Virus record (IMG/VR): IMGVR_UViG_3300001533_003197
Coordinates: 1 to 36,205 of that record
Source: a virus
Reading direction: 5' to 3' (one strand)
Length of the DNA: 36,205 nucleotides
Below are positions 2,590-16,176 of the stretch, one piece after another. Made by a program: the position numbers and the translations under genes. The notes beneath the pieces were generated by a model. That model ran no database searches. It was not told the origin of the DNA and was given only the letters and a program-made list of their open reading frames with translations. Every line of letters starts with the position of its first letter. Within the stretch, counting starts at the first letter, position 1.

Positions 2590-3260
2590 TGTTTAATCAT
2601 ATTGAAATAGATTATCCTCAACTTGAAAGAGAGACAATTGATGGTGTAAGATATTATGATACTCCTGATGGACAAAAATTAGTATCTATCACTTCTGTCA
2701 TTAGTCATTACAATCGTGAGATCTTCAGGGAATGGAGAGCAAAAATTGGTAATGATGAAGCAAATAAAATTACCAAAGCTGCAACAAGTCGTGGTACTGA
2801 TATGCACACTTTGGTTGAAAACTATTTGTTGAATCAAGAACTTCCTGAAGTTCAACCACTATCAGATCTTCTTTTCAAACAATCAAAACCTTATCTGAAT
2901 AAAATTGATAATATTCATGCTATTGAACAATCTCTTTTTAGTAAAGAGTTGGGAGTGGCAGGAACAGTTGATTGTATTGCTGAATACGAAGGTGAACTAG
3001 CAGTTATTGATTTTAAGACAAGTAAAAAACCAAAACCAGAAAAGTGGATTGAACATTATTTTGTACAGTGTGCTGCATATGCATGTATGTTGTATGAAAT
3101 GACTGGTATTATAGTAAAAAAGTTTGTAATCATTATGTCCTGTGAGGATGGAGATTGTGTAGTCTATGAAAAATATGATAAAAGAAAGTACATCAACCTT
3201 CTTGCAAAGTACGTTGGCGAGTTTGTTGAATTTAAACTGCAGGAATATGGAAAAACCTGA
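2589..3260 (+). CDS. PD-(D/E)XK exonuclease, RecB-like
   Basis: This 223-residue protein has the hallmarks of a RecB/Cas4-type nuclease. An N-terminal SRGTDMHTLVE segment (residues 67-77) contains the conserved His. The core metal site is GTVD with Asp128, followed by VIDFKTS with Asp141 and Lys143 (D-x-K). Four cysteines lie in the C-terminal third, but they do not form an obvious Cas4 iron-sulfur pattern. Similar proteins are annotated as exonucleases in cyanomyoviruses, where they probably act in recombination or in degradation of host DNA. It overlaps phoH by one base and gp33 by 14 bases. The exact substrate cannot be inferred. Confidence 0.85.
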   Translation: MFNHIEIDYPQLERETIDGVRYYDTPDGQKLVSITSVISHYNREIFREWRAKIGNDEANKITKAATSRGTDMHTLVENYLLNQELPEVQPLSDLLFKQSKPYLNKIDNIHAIEQSLFSKELGVAGTVDCIAEYEGELAVIDFKTSKKPKPEKWIEHYFVQCAAYACMLYEMTGIIVKKFVIIMSCEDGDCVVYEKYDKRKYINLLAKYVGEFVEFKLQEYGKT

Positions 3261-10215: not shown

Positions 10216-10935
10216 ATGCCTTTACCAAAAATATCCACACCAACATATGAGTTGGAGTTGCCATCTTCCAAACAGAAAATCAAGTATAGACCATTTTTAG
10301 TAAAAGAAGAAAAACTTCTTGTACTTGCATTAGAGAGTGAAGATACTAAACAAATTACGATGGCAATTAAAAATGTCATCAAGAGTTGTATTTCAACAAG
10401 AGGAATTAAAGTAGAGGAACTTCCTACTTTTGATATTGAATATCTCTTTTTAAATATTAGAGGTAAGTCTGTTGGTGAAGAAGTCGAACTTAATATTACA
10501 GCTCCAGATGATAATGAAACTCCGATTCCTGTTACTATTTCTTTAGACGATATTAAAGTTGTTGAAAGTGAAGATCATACTAAACAGATCAAACTAGATG
10601 ATGACTTAATGATGGAAATGAAATATCCATCATTGGATCAGTTTATTAAAAATAATTTTGATTTCAGTGATGGTAGAAATATTGATGATTCATTTGAACT
10701 GATTGCTTCTTGTGTTGATAAAATTTATAATGATGAAGAGGTATGGTCAACTGCTGACGTTAGTAAAAAAGAAGTTGTTGAATTTCTTGATCAATTGAAT
10801 TCAATTCAGTTCAAAGAAATTGAAAAGTTTTTTGACACGATGCCAAAACTTTCTTATACATTGGAAGTTACAAATCCAAAAACTAAAGTTAAAAGTACTG
10901 TCGTACTGGAGGGACTATCAAGTTTTTTCGGATAG
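10216..10935 (+). CDS. gp26: gp26-like baseplate hub / tail assembly chaperone-like protein
   Basis: A 239-residue protein of the T4 gp26 type, recognised from PLPKISTPTYELELPSS, KIKYRPFLVKEEKLLVLALE and the block ISTRGIKVEELPTFDIEYLF. T4 gp26 (208 residues) takes part in hub assembly. Its last codons are AGT TTT TTC GGA TAG, forming a T_TTT_TTC heptamer just before the stop. A small ORF in the -1 frame overlaps this end, and a tape-measure-like gene follows. This suggests a frameshifting chaperone role like lambda gpG/gpGT. The unshifted product would be 239 residues and the shifted one about 300. Confidence 0.87.
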   Translation: MPLPKISTPTYELELPSSKQKIKYRPFLVKEEKLLVLALESEDTKQITMAIKNVIKSCISTRGIKVEELPTFDIEYLFLNIRGKSVGEEVELNITAPDDNETPIPVTISLDDIKVVESEDHTKQIKLDDDLMMEMKYPSLDQFIKNNFDFSDGRNIDDSFELIASCVDKIYNDEEVWSTADVSKKEVVEFLDQLNSIQFKEIEKFFDTMPKLSYTLEVTNPKTKVKSTVVLEGLSSFFG

Positions 10936-10953
10936 GACTGATCCATATGGATC
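10908..10953 (+). other. candidate programmed -1 frameshift signal
   Basis: Three elements line up: GGAGGG (10908-10913, a Shine-Dalgarno-like stimulator), nine bases, T_TTT_TTC (10923-10929) in the correct zero frame, ten bases, then GATCC-ATAT-GGATC (10940-10953), a 5-bp hairpin. The zero-frame stop is at 10933. A -1 slip continues with CGG ATA GGA CTG into the open frame of the 10947-11117 ORF, which is open from 10893. Confidence 0.6.
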
Positions 10954-11117
10954 TGGAAAATTATTTCCGACTTAACTTTGCCTTGATGCAATACCATAAA
11001 TATTCTTTAACAGAGATTGAAAATATGATGCCTTGGGAGAGAGATGTATATGTGTCTCTTTTACAACAACATTTAGAAGAAGAGGAACAGAAACTTAAGG
11101 CACGACAAAATGGCTAG
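10947..11117 (+). CDS. small overlapping ORF, probably a -1 frameshift extension
   Basis: A 56-residue ORF from ATG 10947 in the -1 frame relative to the gp26-like gene. It overlaps the start of the next gene by eight bases. The sequence is helical and aromatic (YFRLNFALMQYHKYS), then LTEIENMMPWERDVYVSLL, then a charged tail. The MPWER-type motif resembles short proteins found just before tape-measure genes. The position corresponds to gene 51 in T4, but at 56 residues it is far shorter than T4 gp51. It may be translated from its own ATG (weak AGGA nine bases upstream) or as the T-part of a fusion of about 300 residues. Confidence 0.7.
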   Translation: MDLENYFRLNFALMQYHKYSLTEIENMMPWERDVYVSLLQQHLEEEEQKLKARQNG

Positions 11118-13908
11118 AGATCCTAAGACATTAAGAAAGGCTTACGAGTATAAACTCGGAAAGGATCTCGCATCCAAACTTTCTGATACTCAAATTAAAA
11201 AGTTATCACAATACTATAATTCACTCTCAGCAAAAGAACAAAGTAAAGTTGATAGTGATCTCATAGCAGGTAAAGGTGATTTTCTGGATGTTGCCAGAGG
11301 AATGGCAGAGGGTATTGTTGATGGTGAAGTGGCATCAGTCTCAGAAGCTGATAAGAAAAAATTTACTAAGAAAGAAGATAAAGTACCTGAAGGACTTGAT
11401 GACCTTTTAAATGATATTAAGAAAGAAATTGATGAAAAAGTTCCTGAGGGACTTGATGACCTTTTAAATGATATCAAAAATGAAGTCGAAGAAAAAGTTC
11501 CTGAAGGACTTGATGATCTTCTAAACGATATCAAAAATGAAGTTGAAGAAATTAAAGAGGATAATGAAAAAGTTCCTGAAGGACTTGATGATCTTCTAAA
11601 CGAGATACAAAAAGAAGTTAAAGAAACTAAAAGTAAGACTGATAATATACCTGAAGGTCTTGATGAATTACTTGATGAAATCCGAAAGGAAGATGATAAA
11701 AGTAAAGAACAATCTAAACCATTAACATCTTCTACTCTTACAGTATATAAAGGAAAGAAAGATGATGATTTAGTTGAAGAAGAAATTGATGAGAAAATTC
11801 TCAATCTTCTGGGACTAGAAGATGTATTTGATTTAGATTATGGTACTTATGCAACACTCCTCAAAGCTTCGATTGTAGAAAATAAGGATAAAATACCAGC
11901 AGAAGAACTTGCAATTCTTTCAAATGAAAGAAAAAGAATTAGAGATAAAGTTGGTAGATTCAAAGTAAAAGGAAAGAAAATAAATGCAGAGACATTCAAA
12001 AAAACAAAAAAACCGACAGCAGTAAAAGTTGATACTAAAAAACTATTACCTGCTGCCAAGATAAAATCTGAAGACCTAAAAGAAGAAGTCAAAGAAGATA
12101 CAACAGAACAACTAATACCTTTATCTGATTCTCTTTCTGATATTGAAAAAAATCTTGCAAAAATTTTAGAACTCAATCAAAAAAGACTTGATCTAGAAAA
12201 GACACAAGCAAAAACCGAAGCAAGAGAACAAGAAAAGGCTGGGGCAACACAAAGAGAAGAAAGATTAGAAGGTGATCAAGGAAAGAGATCTGTAACAAAG
12301 ATTCAAAGAGTATTAGCTCCAGCAAAAGGTTTAATTGATACAATTATTGACTTTTTTAAAAATATTTTATTTGGTGGTGCAATTCAGTTATTACTTGATG
12401 TTATCAAGGATCCAGGAAAATATCTCAGAGGTATCATTGATTTTATAAATGGATTCATAACAAAAATTGATGATTTGTTTGAGTGGATGTATGATACTTT
12501 AATTTTAGGAACAATCAATCAATTTATTGGTTTAGCAAATTCTATCATCACAACCATTGAAGATACTATCAATGATATTGCAAATAAAGTTCCATTCTTT
12601 GATCCAATAACTTTAGGAAAGATCGATCCCATAGATACAACTTTAGATCAAGTACCTAATCTTCCTCAAGTTCCCACTCCTCAATGGGCACAACAACAAG
12701 AGGGTGGTGGTACAGTACTTTCTAATCAAGAAAATGGATTTGGCACAATAGTTAACAAAATTTTTATTCCTCAATGGGCACAACAACAAGAGGGTGGTGG
12801 TACAGTACTGAACAAAATTTTTATTCCTCAATGGGCACAACAACAAGAGGGTGGTGGTACAGTACTGAACATAGATAAAATTTCTTTCACCAATGGAGGT
12901 AAAATTGGAAAAGATTCTGGTATTACAATCACAGGAATGGGTAGAGACACTCAACTGATTGCTGCTCAACCTGGTGAAATTATGATGAGTAAGAAGGCTG
13001 TTGATAAGTATGGTGCAGAAAATCTTCTCGGTGCAAATGAAGCAGCAGGTGGAACAAATCAACCAAAATTTGGTAAGTTTATGGGATTTGAAGGTGGTGG
13101 TTTGATCGGTGTCAAAAATCCAAAAGGATTTAGTCCAGGTAAGGGAGACAGAAGTAAAAAAATATTCTTACACTGGACAGCTAGTAGTTATAATAGTGAT
13201 TATGGTGCATATCATACAATTTTCCAAGGTGATGGAACACCAATCAGAAAAGGAGATTATGGTGTAGATAGAGGTGGTCATACTGGTGGCGCAAATAGTA
13301 ATTCTGTTGGATTGAGCATTGCATCAATGCAAGGTGCAACACCAAATAATTTTGGCAAATATCCTCCCACACAAGCACAGTTAAAAGCAATGGCTGCTGA
13401 GGCTGCAGCCTTAGCGGTGAATTGGGGTTGGTCAAAATCTGATGTAGATAAAAATGTTATGACTCATGGTGAATGGGAAAGATATGCTGTGGCAAATGGA
13501 TTATTATCTTCTCCTGTTCAGAGATGGGATCTTGATATGTTAAAACAAGGAGATCCAGTAGGTAGTGGGGGTAAGGCTTTAAGAGCAATGATCAAGTCTT
13601 ATATGGATGGAATGGAACCAACATCCAGTGTTCAGGCTTCCTCATCATCACCTGTTGCTCCAGGATCAATTTCTAGAGGAAGTAGTCCATCATCAGGTAC
13701 TCAGTCAATAAGACCACCAATTCCATTAGAAGATCTTGGTTCATTATACAGAAAGAATTTTATGGAATTCGTTGGTCAGGGAGGTCAAAAAAGTCAGGGT
13801 TCATCTGGATCTTCGGCTTCACAAAAAAGAGTTCCGTCATTTTCTGCTGAAGATTTAAATAATGATGAATTGATAGTTGTCAAATCAATTTACAACATTG
13901 TAGGGTAA
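11110..13908 (+). CDS. tape-measure-like tail protein with N-acetylmuramoyl-L-alanine amidase domain
   Basis: A 932-residue multidomain protein. The N-terminus is helical. Residues 91-200 hold five VPEGLDDLLNDI-type repeats, 300-400 is Lys/Glu-rich, and 398-500 is hydrophobic (FKNILFGGAIQLLLDVI). Residues 520-590 hold three PQWAQQQEGGGTVL repeats. The segment PGEIMMSKKAVDKYGAENLL is typical of tape-measure C-termini. An Amidase_2/AmpD-type domain spans about 678-830, with probable zinc ligands His688 (LHWTAS), His786 (THGEW) and Asp807 (RWDLD). This indicates cell-wall hydrolysis during tail penetration. The C-terminus is Ser-rich. It follows the gp26-like chaperone region, as tape-measure genes usually do. 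T4 gp29 is not obviously homologous. Confidence 0.75.
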   Translation: MARDPKTLRKAYEYKLGKDLASKLSDTQIKKLSQYYNSLSAKEQSKVDSDLIAGKGDFLDVARGMAEGIVDGEVASVSEADKKKFTKKEDKVPEGLDDLLNDIKKEIDEKVPEGLDDLLNDIKNEVEEKVPEGLDDLLNDIKNEVEEIKEDNEKVPEGLDDLLNEIQKEVKETKSKTDNIPEGLDELLDEIRKEDDKSKEQSKPLTSSTLTVYKGKKDDDLVEEEIDEKILNLLGLEDVFDLDYGTYATLLKASIVENKDKIPAEELAILSNERKRIRDKVGRFKVKGKKINAETFKKTKKPTAVKVDTKKLLPAAKIKSEDLKEEVKEDTTEQLIPLSDSLSDIEKNLAKILELNQKRLDLEKTQAKTEAREQEKAGATQREERLEGDQGKRSVTKIQRVLAPAKGLIDTIIDFFKNILFGGAIQLLLDVIKDPGKYLRGIIDFINGFITKIDDLFEWMYDTLILGTINQFIGLANSIITTIEDTINDIANKVPFFDPITLGKIDPIDTTLDQVPNLPQVPTPQWAQQQEGGGTVLSNQENGFGTIVNKIFIPQWAQQQEGGGTVLNKIFIPQWAQQQEGGGTVLNIDKISFTNGGKIGKDSGITITGMGRDTQLIAAQPGEIMMSKKAVDKYGAENLLGANEAAGGTNQPKFGKFMGFEGGGLIGVKNPKGFSPGKGDRSKKIFLHWTASSYNSDYGAYHTIFQGDGTPIRKGDYGVDRGGHTGGANSNSVGLSIASMQGATPNNFGKYPPTQAQLKAMAAEAAALAVNWGWSKSDVDKNVMTHGEWERYAVANGLLSSPVQRWDLDMLKQGDPVGSGGKALRAMIKSYMDGMEPTSSVQASSSSPVAPGSISRGSSPSSGTQSIRPPIPLEDLGSLYRKNFMEFVGQGGQKSQGSSGSSASQKRVPSFSAEDLNNDELIVVKSIYNIVG
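11380..11703 (+). repeat. five in-frame VPEGLDDLLNDIK coding repeats
   Basis: Five units with the core (V/I)PEGLD(D/E)LL(N/D)(D/E)I and charged spacers of different length occupy this stretch of the tape-measure-like gene. The first three share much of their DNA sequence, including CTTGATGACCTT or close variants. The units look like amphipathic helices and probably lengthen a rod-like region. Confidence 0.85.
12754..12867 (+). repeat. two perfect 57-bp in-frame tandem repeats plus a related upstream copy
   Basis: Bases 12754-12810 and 12811-12867 appear identical, each encoding a 19-residue unit with the core IPQWAQQQEGGGTVL. A third copy of the core lies upstream at about 12678-12719. Because the DNA itself is unchanged, including third codon positions, the duplication is probably recent or maintained by recombination. 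Confidence 0.9.
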
Positions 13909-13914
13909 TCTAAT

Positions 13915-16176
13915 ATGTTACCATTATTAACTGGAGCTGTAAGTGGAATTGCTAAAGGAGCGGTAAAAGGTGCTGCTAAAAATAAAGCAAAAAGTTTTGT
14001 TACTGGTAGGGGTAAAAAAAAGGATCCTACTCTAAGAAAGGGTGATAAGACTTATAATAAAGGTGTTGAAACAGCTACAACAGTATCAAATCCAAAAGTA
14101 AAAAAAGTGGCATCAATAAAGATGTCAAAGTTATCTATTCCTACTGGTAAGATAAAAATAACTCCGAAAAGTAAAAAAGTAAGTTATGAATCACTCAATA
14201 AGACTCTGAATAATATTACTAAGGTAACAAATTCTCTTGTAAAATCATCAGAAGCAGAACTGAATTATATAAAACAAAAAAATGAATTTGAAAGAAAAAA
14301 ATCTGAAGCTAAAAGAGCCAAGAAAAGAGAAGAAAAATTAGAAAAGAAAAAACGTGGATTTTCGATTCCGAGTATTGGAATGATTCCATCTGTTAAAGGA
14401 ACAGGAGAGATATTTAATTTTCTAAGTAATATCTTGTTAGGAGGTCTTGCACTCTTTCTTCTCAACAATCTCCCTGCAATAGAAAATTTATTCACAACTC
14501 TTAAAGATAATTTTCTAAATCCATTTAAATTTATTAAGTCAGTAATTGTTGGTCTAGGAACTGTATTTTCTAAACCTATTGCTTCAACACTTGGAGGGTT
14601 GTTTAATGGTGTTAGATTAGTTACTAGAAAAGTTTTAAACTTTATTGGTCCATTAACAAATAAAGTTAAAAGATCTGTTGTAAGACTTGGTAAAGGACTG
14701 AAGAATTTTGTTCTTAATATTATCAACAAAGCAAAAAATGTTGTGACAAGAGGTGTAGTAGGTGGTGCGGGAGCTGCGGCTGGAGCAAAACCAAGAACTT
14801 TAAACCAGTTAAAATCTCAATCAAGATCTGCATCACAAAGTACAATACGACAGTCATCTGCTGCAAGAAATTTTTACTCTAGAAAAGGATTTAAAAGACT
14901 TTCTGGAATATCTAAGATCTTCAAAAGAATTCCATTAATTGGAGCATTACTTTCGATTGGAATTGATTTGGCATTAGGGGAAAGTATTGACAGAACTGTT
15001 GTTGGAGCAATGGGTGGTGGACTTGGTGCATGGATTGGTGGTGGTATTGGATCTTTAGTTTTTCCTTTTGCAGGAACTGCTGCTGGAGCTATACTTGGTA
15101 GTATGATTGGTGACTGGGCAGCCAAAGCTTTATATGAAAAAGTTAAAAGTGGATTTGATCAGATAGATCCACTTTCCGATGTAAGTTCGATAGATTCAAT
15201 GACATGGAGAAATATATTTGGGGTTGATGAACCATGGACTCCTCCAGAAGACTCTGAAATAGGAACAACATATCAGGGACAACCAACAGGTTCTGGAAGT
15301 GGTAGTTCAACTACTGGATTGAATATTACTGGAGCTAAAACAACATATTATGATCCTTCTTTGGGTGGTATTAACGCAAGTGGATATAAAACTCCTGAAG
15401 GTCTTCCTGCAACATCTACAGGAGAAGGATATAAACCAGAAGTATTTTCTGCTGCTGCCTTTCCACCACTACTCAAAATGTTACCTTCAAATATGACGGT
15501 TCCTGCAAGAAACTTTCCTGGTGGAAGAACTTTAAAGAAACCATTTACTGTTATTGTGACTAATAGTCAGGGTAAAAGTGCAGTTGTTAGAGTCAATGAT
15601 GTTGGTCCTGGTGTTTCAGGTCATTCTTCAAATCACATGTTAGATTTTAGTGTGGCTGCAAAGAATTATTTGGGAACTGGTCAAGGTTTTACTATTCAAA
15701 TGGCAGAACCTGGTTCTAAACCTGGTCCATTGAAAGATGGTCAGATAACTCCACAACAACAAACACCTCAAGTTAGACCATCACCAACTCAAACTTCTCC
15801 AGGAGAAAATGATCCTAAAACTCAATTTCATGATAAAGGAAAAGATGGAAGAGGAGATGGACCACAAGTTGGAGCTTCAGTTAGACCATCTGCTGAAAGT
15901 GAACAAGAGATGGGTGGATTACTTCCATCAGGAGTCGATTTTAATCCAGCAAGAGGAGATGCTCCTGGTTCTATGGCAGAGGGTGTAAGTCGAAGAGCAT
16001 CATATGAACAACAAGCATTTGGTTCTCCTACAATTATGTTACCACCTCAAACTCAACCTATGATGAGTGGAGGCGGTGGAGGTGGAATGTCGATGACTGG
16101 AAGTCCATCTACATCACAGATATTAAATAGTTACTACAAAGCTCAACTAATGGGTTTCTTATATAAACAAGGTTAA
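13915..16176 (+). CDS. large tail protein with RlpA-like double-psi beta-barrel domain
   Basis: A 753-residue protein. Residues 1-150 are strongly basic and helical (Lys-rich coiled coil at 105-155). Residues 166-182 (FNFLSNILLGGLALFLL) resemble the hydrophobic segment of the preceding protein, and further hydrophobic and glycine-rich stretches lie near 310-400. About residues 486-605 look like a DPBB/RlpA-like domain: TYYDPSLGGINASGYKTPEG, FTVIVTNSQGKSAVVRVND, GPG and LDFSVAAKNYLG. RlpA-type domains include peptidoglycan-active enzymes, so a second tail lysin or wall-binding role is inferred. The C-terminus is Pro/Gln/Gly-rich. It overlaps gp27 by one base. Confidence 0.65.
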   Translation: MLPLLTGAVSGIAKGAVKGAAKNKAKSFVTGRGKKKDPTLRKGDKTYNKGVETATTVSNPKVKKVASIKMSKLSIPTGKIKITPKSKKVSYESLNKTLNNITKVTNSLVKSSEAELNYIKQKNEFERKKSEAKRAKKREEKLEKKKRGFSIPSIGMIPSVKGTGEIFNFLSNILLGGLALFLLNNLPAIENLFTTLKDNFLNPFKFIKSVIVGLGTVFSKPIASTLGGLFNGVRLVTRKVLNFIGPLTNKVKRSVVRLGKGLKNFVLNIINKAKNVVTRGVVGGAGAAAGAKPRTLNQLKSQSRSASQSTIRQSSAARNFYSRKGFKRLSGISKIFKRIPLIGALLSIGIDLALGESIDRTVVGAMGGGLGAWIGGGIGSLVFPFAGTAAGAILGSMIGDWAAKALYEKVKSGFDQIDPLSDVSSIDSMTWRNIFGVDEPWTPPEDSEIGTTYQGQPTGSGSGSSTTGLNITGAKTTYYDPSLGGINASGYKTPEGLPATSTGEGYKPEVFSAAAFPPLLKMLPSNMTVPARNFPGGRTLKKPFTVIVTNSQGKSAVVRVNDVGPGVSGHSSNHMLDFSVAAKNYLGTGQGFTIQMAEPGSKPGPLKDGQITPQQQTPQVRPSPTQTSPGENDPKTQFHDKGKDGRGDGPQVGASVRPSAESEQEMGGLLPSGVDFNPARGDAPGSMAEGVSRRASYEQQAFGSPTIMLPPQTQPMMSGGGGGGMSMTGSPSTSQILNSYYKAQLMGFLYKQG

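Follow-up and report, generated by a model that had tools for sequence, protein, structure and literature searches.

The gp26-gp51 junction

We analyzed a window of 36,205 bases, an IMG/VR virus record from a marine T4-like phage whose relatives are found among cyanophages such as RN05-S and P-TIM68. The window carries a gp26-like gene whose product scores 249.9 bits against the curated T4_baseplate family (PF12322, cut-off 24.5) and is therefore a member of it. The features at the 3′ end of this gene and beyond are the following:

10216..10935, + strand: gp26-like gene, 239 aa, unshifted ("G"-type) short product; PF12322 E 2.8e-74, phrog_150 E 4.1e-80
10908..10913, + strand: GGAGGG, resembling a Shine-Dalgarno (SD) sequence and ending 9 nt upstream of the heptamer; candidate stimulator
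10923..10929, + strand: putative slippery heptamer T_TTT_TTC; T_TTT_TT(C/T/G) kept in 331 of 333 loci
10933..10935, + strand: gp26 stop codon TAG, one codon past the heptamer; spacing identical in 151 of 175 nonredundant loci
10929..11117, + strand: predicted −1 frame extension ("T"-type), 62 codons and a stop, decoded once the ribosome has slipped; constrained in the −1 frame upstream of the ATG
10940..10953, + strand: short hairpin GATCC-ATAT-GGATC, candidate downstream stimulator, starting 10 nt after the heptamer
10947..11117, + strand: small ORF (gp51) as conventionally annotated, starting at its own ATG, about 56 aa; phrog_634 E 1.9e-27
11110..13908, + strand: next gene, 932 aa, tape-measure-like with an Amidase_2 domain; phrog_4200 (tape measure) E 5e-4, Amidase_2 E 1.2e-7

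A sequence-only reading of the window had proposed that a programmed −1 frameshift joins the gp26-like gene to the small ORF, and checking the letters bore out the layout it described. The gene (10216-10935) ends in AGT TTT TTC GGA TAG, with TTTTTTC at 10923-10929, which fits the X_XXY_YYZ register and lies two codons ahead of the gp26 stop. GGAGGG lies nine bases 5′ of the heptamer (10908-10913), the arms of the GATCC/GGATC hairpin, ten bases 3′ of it, occupy 10940-10944 and 10949-10953, and the −1 frame is free of stops from 10893 to 11117, adding exactly 62 residues to give a product of 300 aa. A trans-frame peptide of this predicted gp26-gp51 fusion would be one across ...SSFFRIGLIHMDLENYFR. 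Within the window, T_TTT_TTC at 10923-10929 is the sole in-frame T_TTT_TTN heptamer near any gene end, and the part of gp51 from the ATG onward also matches columns 242-281 of phrog_150.

Conservation of the heptamer and of the −1 frame

We collected 333 gp26 loci from IMG/VR and from named phages, ranging from cyanophages to phages of Vibrio, Pseudomonas, Sinorhizobium, Caulobacter, and Acidovorax. Clustering at 90% identity left a nonredundant set of 179 sequences, 164 of which carry a Phe-Phe pair among their final eight residues. The sequence-only reading had proposed, as a check, to ask whether cyanomyoviruses keep the heptamer and the −1 ORF with no conserved ATG. In the loci collected here, the heptamer is present in 331 of the 333 loci, the small ORF lies in the −1 frame in 329 of the 330 gp26 loci that have a detectable one, and its ATG is absent from 55 of 175 nonredundant loci. 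As the loci share ancestry these counts are not independent events, yet the bases that stay fixed are surrounded by many amino acid and codon changes. The codon preceding the Phe pair ends in T in all 164 nonredundant sequences (97 expected) and is of eight types (AGT, TCT, GAT, AAT, GCT, GGT, ACT, and CAT), and the first Phe codon of the terminal pair is TTT in every one of the 164. XXT TTT therefore occurs at 164 of 164 terminal pairs, against 15 of 200 control Phe-Phe pairs in the same genes. Moreover, both Phe codons are identical in all 101 cyanophage-like sequences, the top rank among 231 columns for synonymous identity. This synonymous conservation of the heptamer argues against the explanation that gp51 is a separate small protein made from its own ATG (10947), with the heptamer incidental to a conserved Phe-Phe end.

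Two loci are better fitted by such a separate gp51. D510 is without the heptamer, and its small ORF has a TAATG start; a scan of viral contigs found no relatives of this gene. In S-SCSM1 (3215-3250 of the locus), an 11-nt insertion, AATCCTAATAG, at the gp26 stop ends the −1 reading, and represents either a sequencing error or a real loss of the fusion. The Ackermannviridae (Det7, May, Bue1, and relatives; 3158-3200 in locus L343, also L344 and L371-L385) have the extension in the −1 frame with no ATG near its start, and carry G_ATT_TTC or A_ATT_TTC in place of the canonical heptamer. In Det7- and May-like loci this non-canonical site lies within ATTTTCATTTAATTTTTGAAATTGATTTA, which is invariant in the loci examined at about 70% protein identity. 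A non-canonical frameshift is thus possible in this family.

Reading of the extension upstream of its ATG

No ATG is found within the first 11 codons of the small ORF in the 55 ATG-less homologues, and in 40 nonredundant loci the first 12 codons hold no ATG, GTG, or TTG. In addition, no gp51 is annotated at the junction in Acidovorax phage ACP17 or in cyanophages Syn30, S-CAM1, and S-PRM1. The trans-frame reading is under selection, as base variability between the gp26 stop and the small-ORF ATG tracks the −1 frame: the second codon positions of that frame at +16 and +22 are near invariant, with T in 151 of 151 and A in 147 of 151 at second positions before the ATG, while third positions vary freely.

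These observations bear directly on a gp51 with a start of its own. The window has an ATG, as do about two thirds of the nonredundant loci, and a separate gene is the conventional GenBank annotation in many cyanophage genomes. Against this stand the loci lacking any of the three start codons, the constraint on the −1 frame 5′ of the ATG, and the finding that SD-like motifs are not enriched before the small-ORF ATG (14 of 100, with 18.5 expected). Taken with the synonymous conservation of the heptamer and the fused form of T4 gp51 described below, they make a separate gp51 very improbable. An intermediate arrangement, in which the cyanophage group makes the frameshift fusion and also some independently started gp51, agrees with base counts at the aligned position, by which most cyanophage-like loci do have the ATG. 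However, the ribosome site before that ATG is not enriched, and the ATG itself overlaps both loop and stem in the hairpin at 10940-10953; we regard this double route as unlikely. The small ORF called gp51 is probably just the C-terminal domain of the fusion.

Candidate stimulators of the slip

SD-like 5-mers are found 8-10 nt before the heptamer in 143 of 177 nonredundant loci, compared with 89 ± 6 expected from synonymous shuffles. In 79 of 100 cyanophage-like loci the hairpin keeps at least 4 of its 5 base pairs, and across this group the region folds more favorably than synonymous shuffles do (mean z −2.34). For the window alone, single-sequence folding was not significant (z −0.6 to −1.3), and the hairpin is not retained in distant relatives. 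It is probably a stimulator specific to the cyanophage-like group. We infer stimulator roles for both the SD-like sequence and the hairpin, and likewise the efficiency of the slip.

The spacing of these elements also bears on how the fusion would be made. The site is a run of T, on which the transcript rather than the ribosome could slip, but the run is just 6 T in 158 of 177 nonredundant loci, short for transcriptional slippage, and the SD-like and hairpin features sit at the spacings of ribosomal stimulators. We give transcriptional slippage hardly any weight. The register and conservation of the heptamer, the T-ending codon rule, the ATG-less homologues, and the −1-frame constraint before the ATG all support ribosomal −1 frameshifting joining gp26 to gp51, and we are confident that a programmed −1 frameshift makes a gp26-gp51 fusion that would serve as a tail assembly chaperone of the G/GT type.

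T4 gp26 and gp51

In T4, genes 26 and 51 are divergent, and therefore T4 itself cannot use the frameshift. Residues 1-201 of T4 gp51 belong to the gp26 family (PF12322 E 3.9e-52); over its full length the protein matches phrog_150, and the C-terminal part also has a match to phrog_634. A profile built from predicted frameshift products only has matches to six T4-type gp51 proteins that run on into the extension and through the C-terminus, with E-values down to 1.2e-18, and the alignment passes the junction without a gap. The same profile matches T4-type gp26 proteins up to the slip point only. T4 gp51 is thus colinear with the predicted fusion over its entire length, and T4 gp26 with the product made without a shift, indicating that T4 uses two divergent paralogous genes, and no frameshift, for what the frameshift encodes elsewhere. 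This arrangement also accounts for an earlier observation by Sullivan et al. (2010; PMC3037559), who noted that cyanophage gp51 is without about 200 N-terminal residues and has about 20% of the length of T4 gp51: the N-terminal part would be supplied by gp26 in the fusion.

In an unrooted tree of gp26 and gp51 proteins, a supported branch (99/98) separates T4-type gp26 and gp51 together from all frameshift-type proteins, which fits one duplication in the T4 lineage. The frameshift arrangement is retained in phiAS5, EniLVp02, and CZ01, also members of the Straboviridae. Tentatively, and with less than even confidence, we propose that the frameshift is the general and probably ancestral route to gp26/gp51 across T4-like phages outside the T4 clade, that a single gene duplication took its place in T4 and its close relatives, and that the Ackermannviridae use a non-canonical −1 site.

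Comparison with known tail assembly chaperones

G-T frameshifting is widespread in long-tailed phages "except T4" (Atkins et al., 2016; PMC5009743). As with gpG/gpGT of lambda (also P2, HK97, and other long-tailed phages), the slip would occur late in a chaperone gene, close to its 3′ end and ahead of a tape-measure-like gene, and yield a short and a C-terminally extended form (PMC5009743). The heptamer here is T_TTT_TTC and the protein belongs to PF12322, so that the two systems are likened by arrangement and not by sequence homology. The gp26-gp51 frameshift adds one more example to a mechanism already described for other long-tailed phages. The tail chaperones of the Vandenendeviridae and Andersonviridae resemble it in that a conserved poly-T motif is the site of a −1 frameshift and the ORF that follows is annotated as a gene of its own, although these are other phage families and their motif is GTTTTT (PMC12846349). 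Phage 0305phi8-36, from another, distant lineage, has two paralogous genes, gp143 and gp144, in place of a frameshift, as proposed for T4, and is compared by gene arrangement (PMC2147016).

Vladimirov, Gautam, and Davidson (Virology, 2022) are cited in a paper (PMC12846349) according to which the TAC-N genes of T4-like phages are known to carry poly-T slippery sequences. The title of the 2022 work speaks for an alternative to frameshifting, in agreement with the two genes of T4 itself, and from that title the work very likely concerns the same gene family; the tail chaperone identity of the T4-like genes has apparently been published there. That the T4 two-gene arrangement is a new finding is ruled out by the prior identification given as reference 76 of PMC12846349. 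Judged by its title, two points may go beyond the 2022 work: how widely the frameshift form occurs, and the signs of constraint on the −1 frame.

From known systems, we infer the following chaperone mechanism. The majority of ribosomes would terminate at the gp26 TAG to give the 239-aa, G-like chaperone, while a fraction, held by the upstream SD-like sequence and, in the cyanophage-like group, by the short downstream hairpin, would slip one base back on U_UUU_UUC to give the 300-aa, GT-like fusion. By analogy with lambda, the tape measure protein would be coated by the short form, the C-terminal extension would recruit tail tube subunits and start their polymerization, and neither form would remain in the virion. 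If so, the annotation of gp26 and gp51 would be corrected in hundreds of phage genomes, the T4 hub proteins of these names would gain a concrete role, one as the short and the other as the long tail assembly chaperone, and the locus would document the change of a frameshift-encoded pair into two genes.

The likeness to G/GT, which the sequence-only reading had drawn, is supported with qualifications. It is favored by the gene order (tube-like gene, chaperone, extension, and large tape-measure-like gene, although in the window the tube-like gene is encoded on the other strand) and by the listing of T4 gp26 and gp51 as hub assembly chaperones (PMC3004832); on the other side, the hairpin is not universal and the tape-measure matches of the next gene, large as it is, are weak (PHROG E about 5e-4). 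Profile comparison (hhalign) of the genes following gp51 in CZ01, EniLVp02, and phiAS5 with T4 gp29 gave no match. In the window, a second large gene at 13915-16176 has a better tape-measure match (phrog_167 E 1.7e-9) than the one that directly follows gp51, and therefore either large gene may be the tape measure.

A Foldseek search with a model of gp26 gave the HK97 tail assembly chaperone 2ob9_A the highest probability among the matches listed (0.75, TMt 0.53), but with an E-value of 1.3, so the likeness in fold is only suggestive. With a T4-type gp51 model, no tail chaperone, 2ob9_A included, was among the 50 matches listed. A sequence search of the PDB matched no chain to gp26 or gp51, which is consistent with the absence of both from the solved parts of the virion.

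Other features of the window

The N-terminal part of the tape-measure-like protein (11110-13908) carries four tandem repeats of a KVPEGLDDLLNDIK-like unit, at 11380-11640 of the window. Finally, the head closure (gp4-like) protein encoded at 9704-10183 matches a TnsA-like endonuclease N-terminal domain (PF08722 E 5.6e-24).
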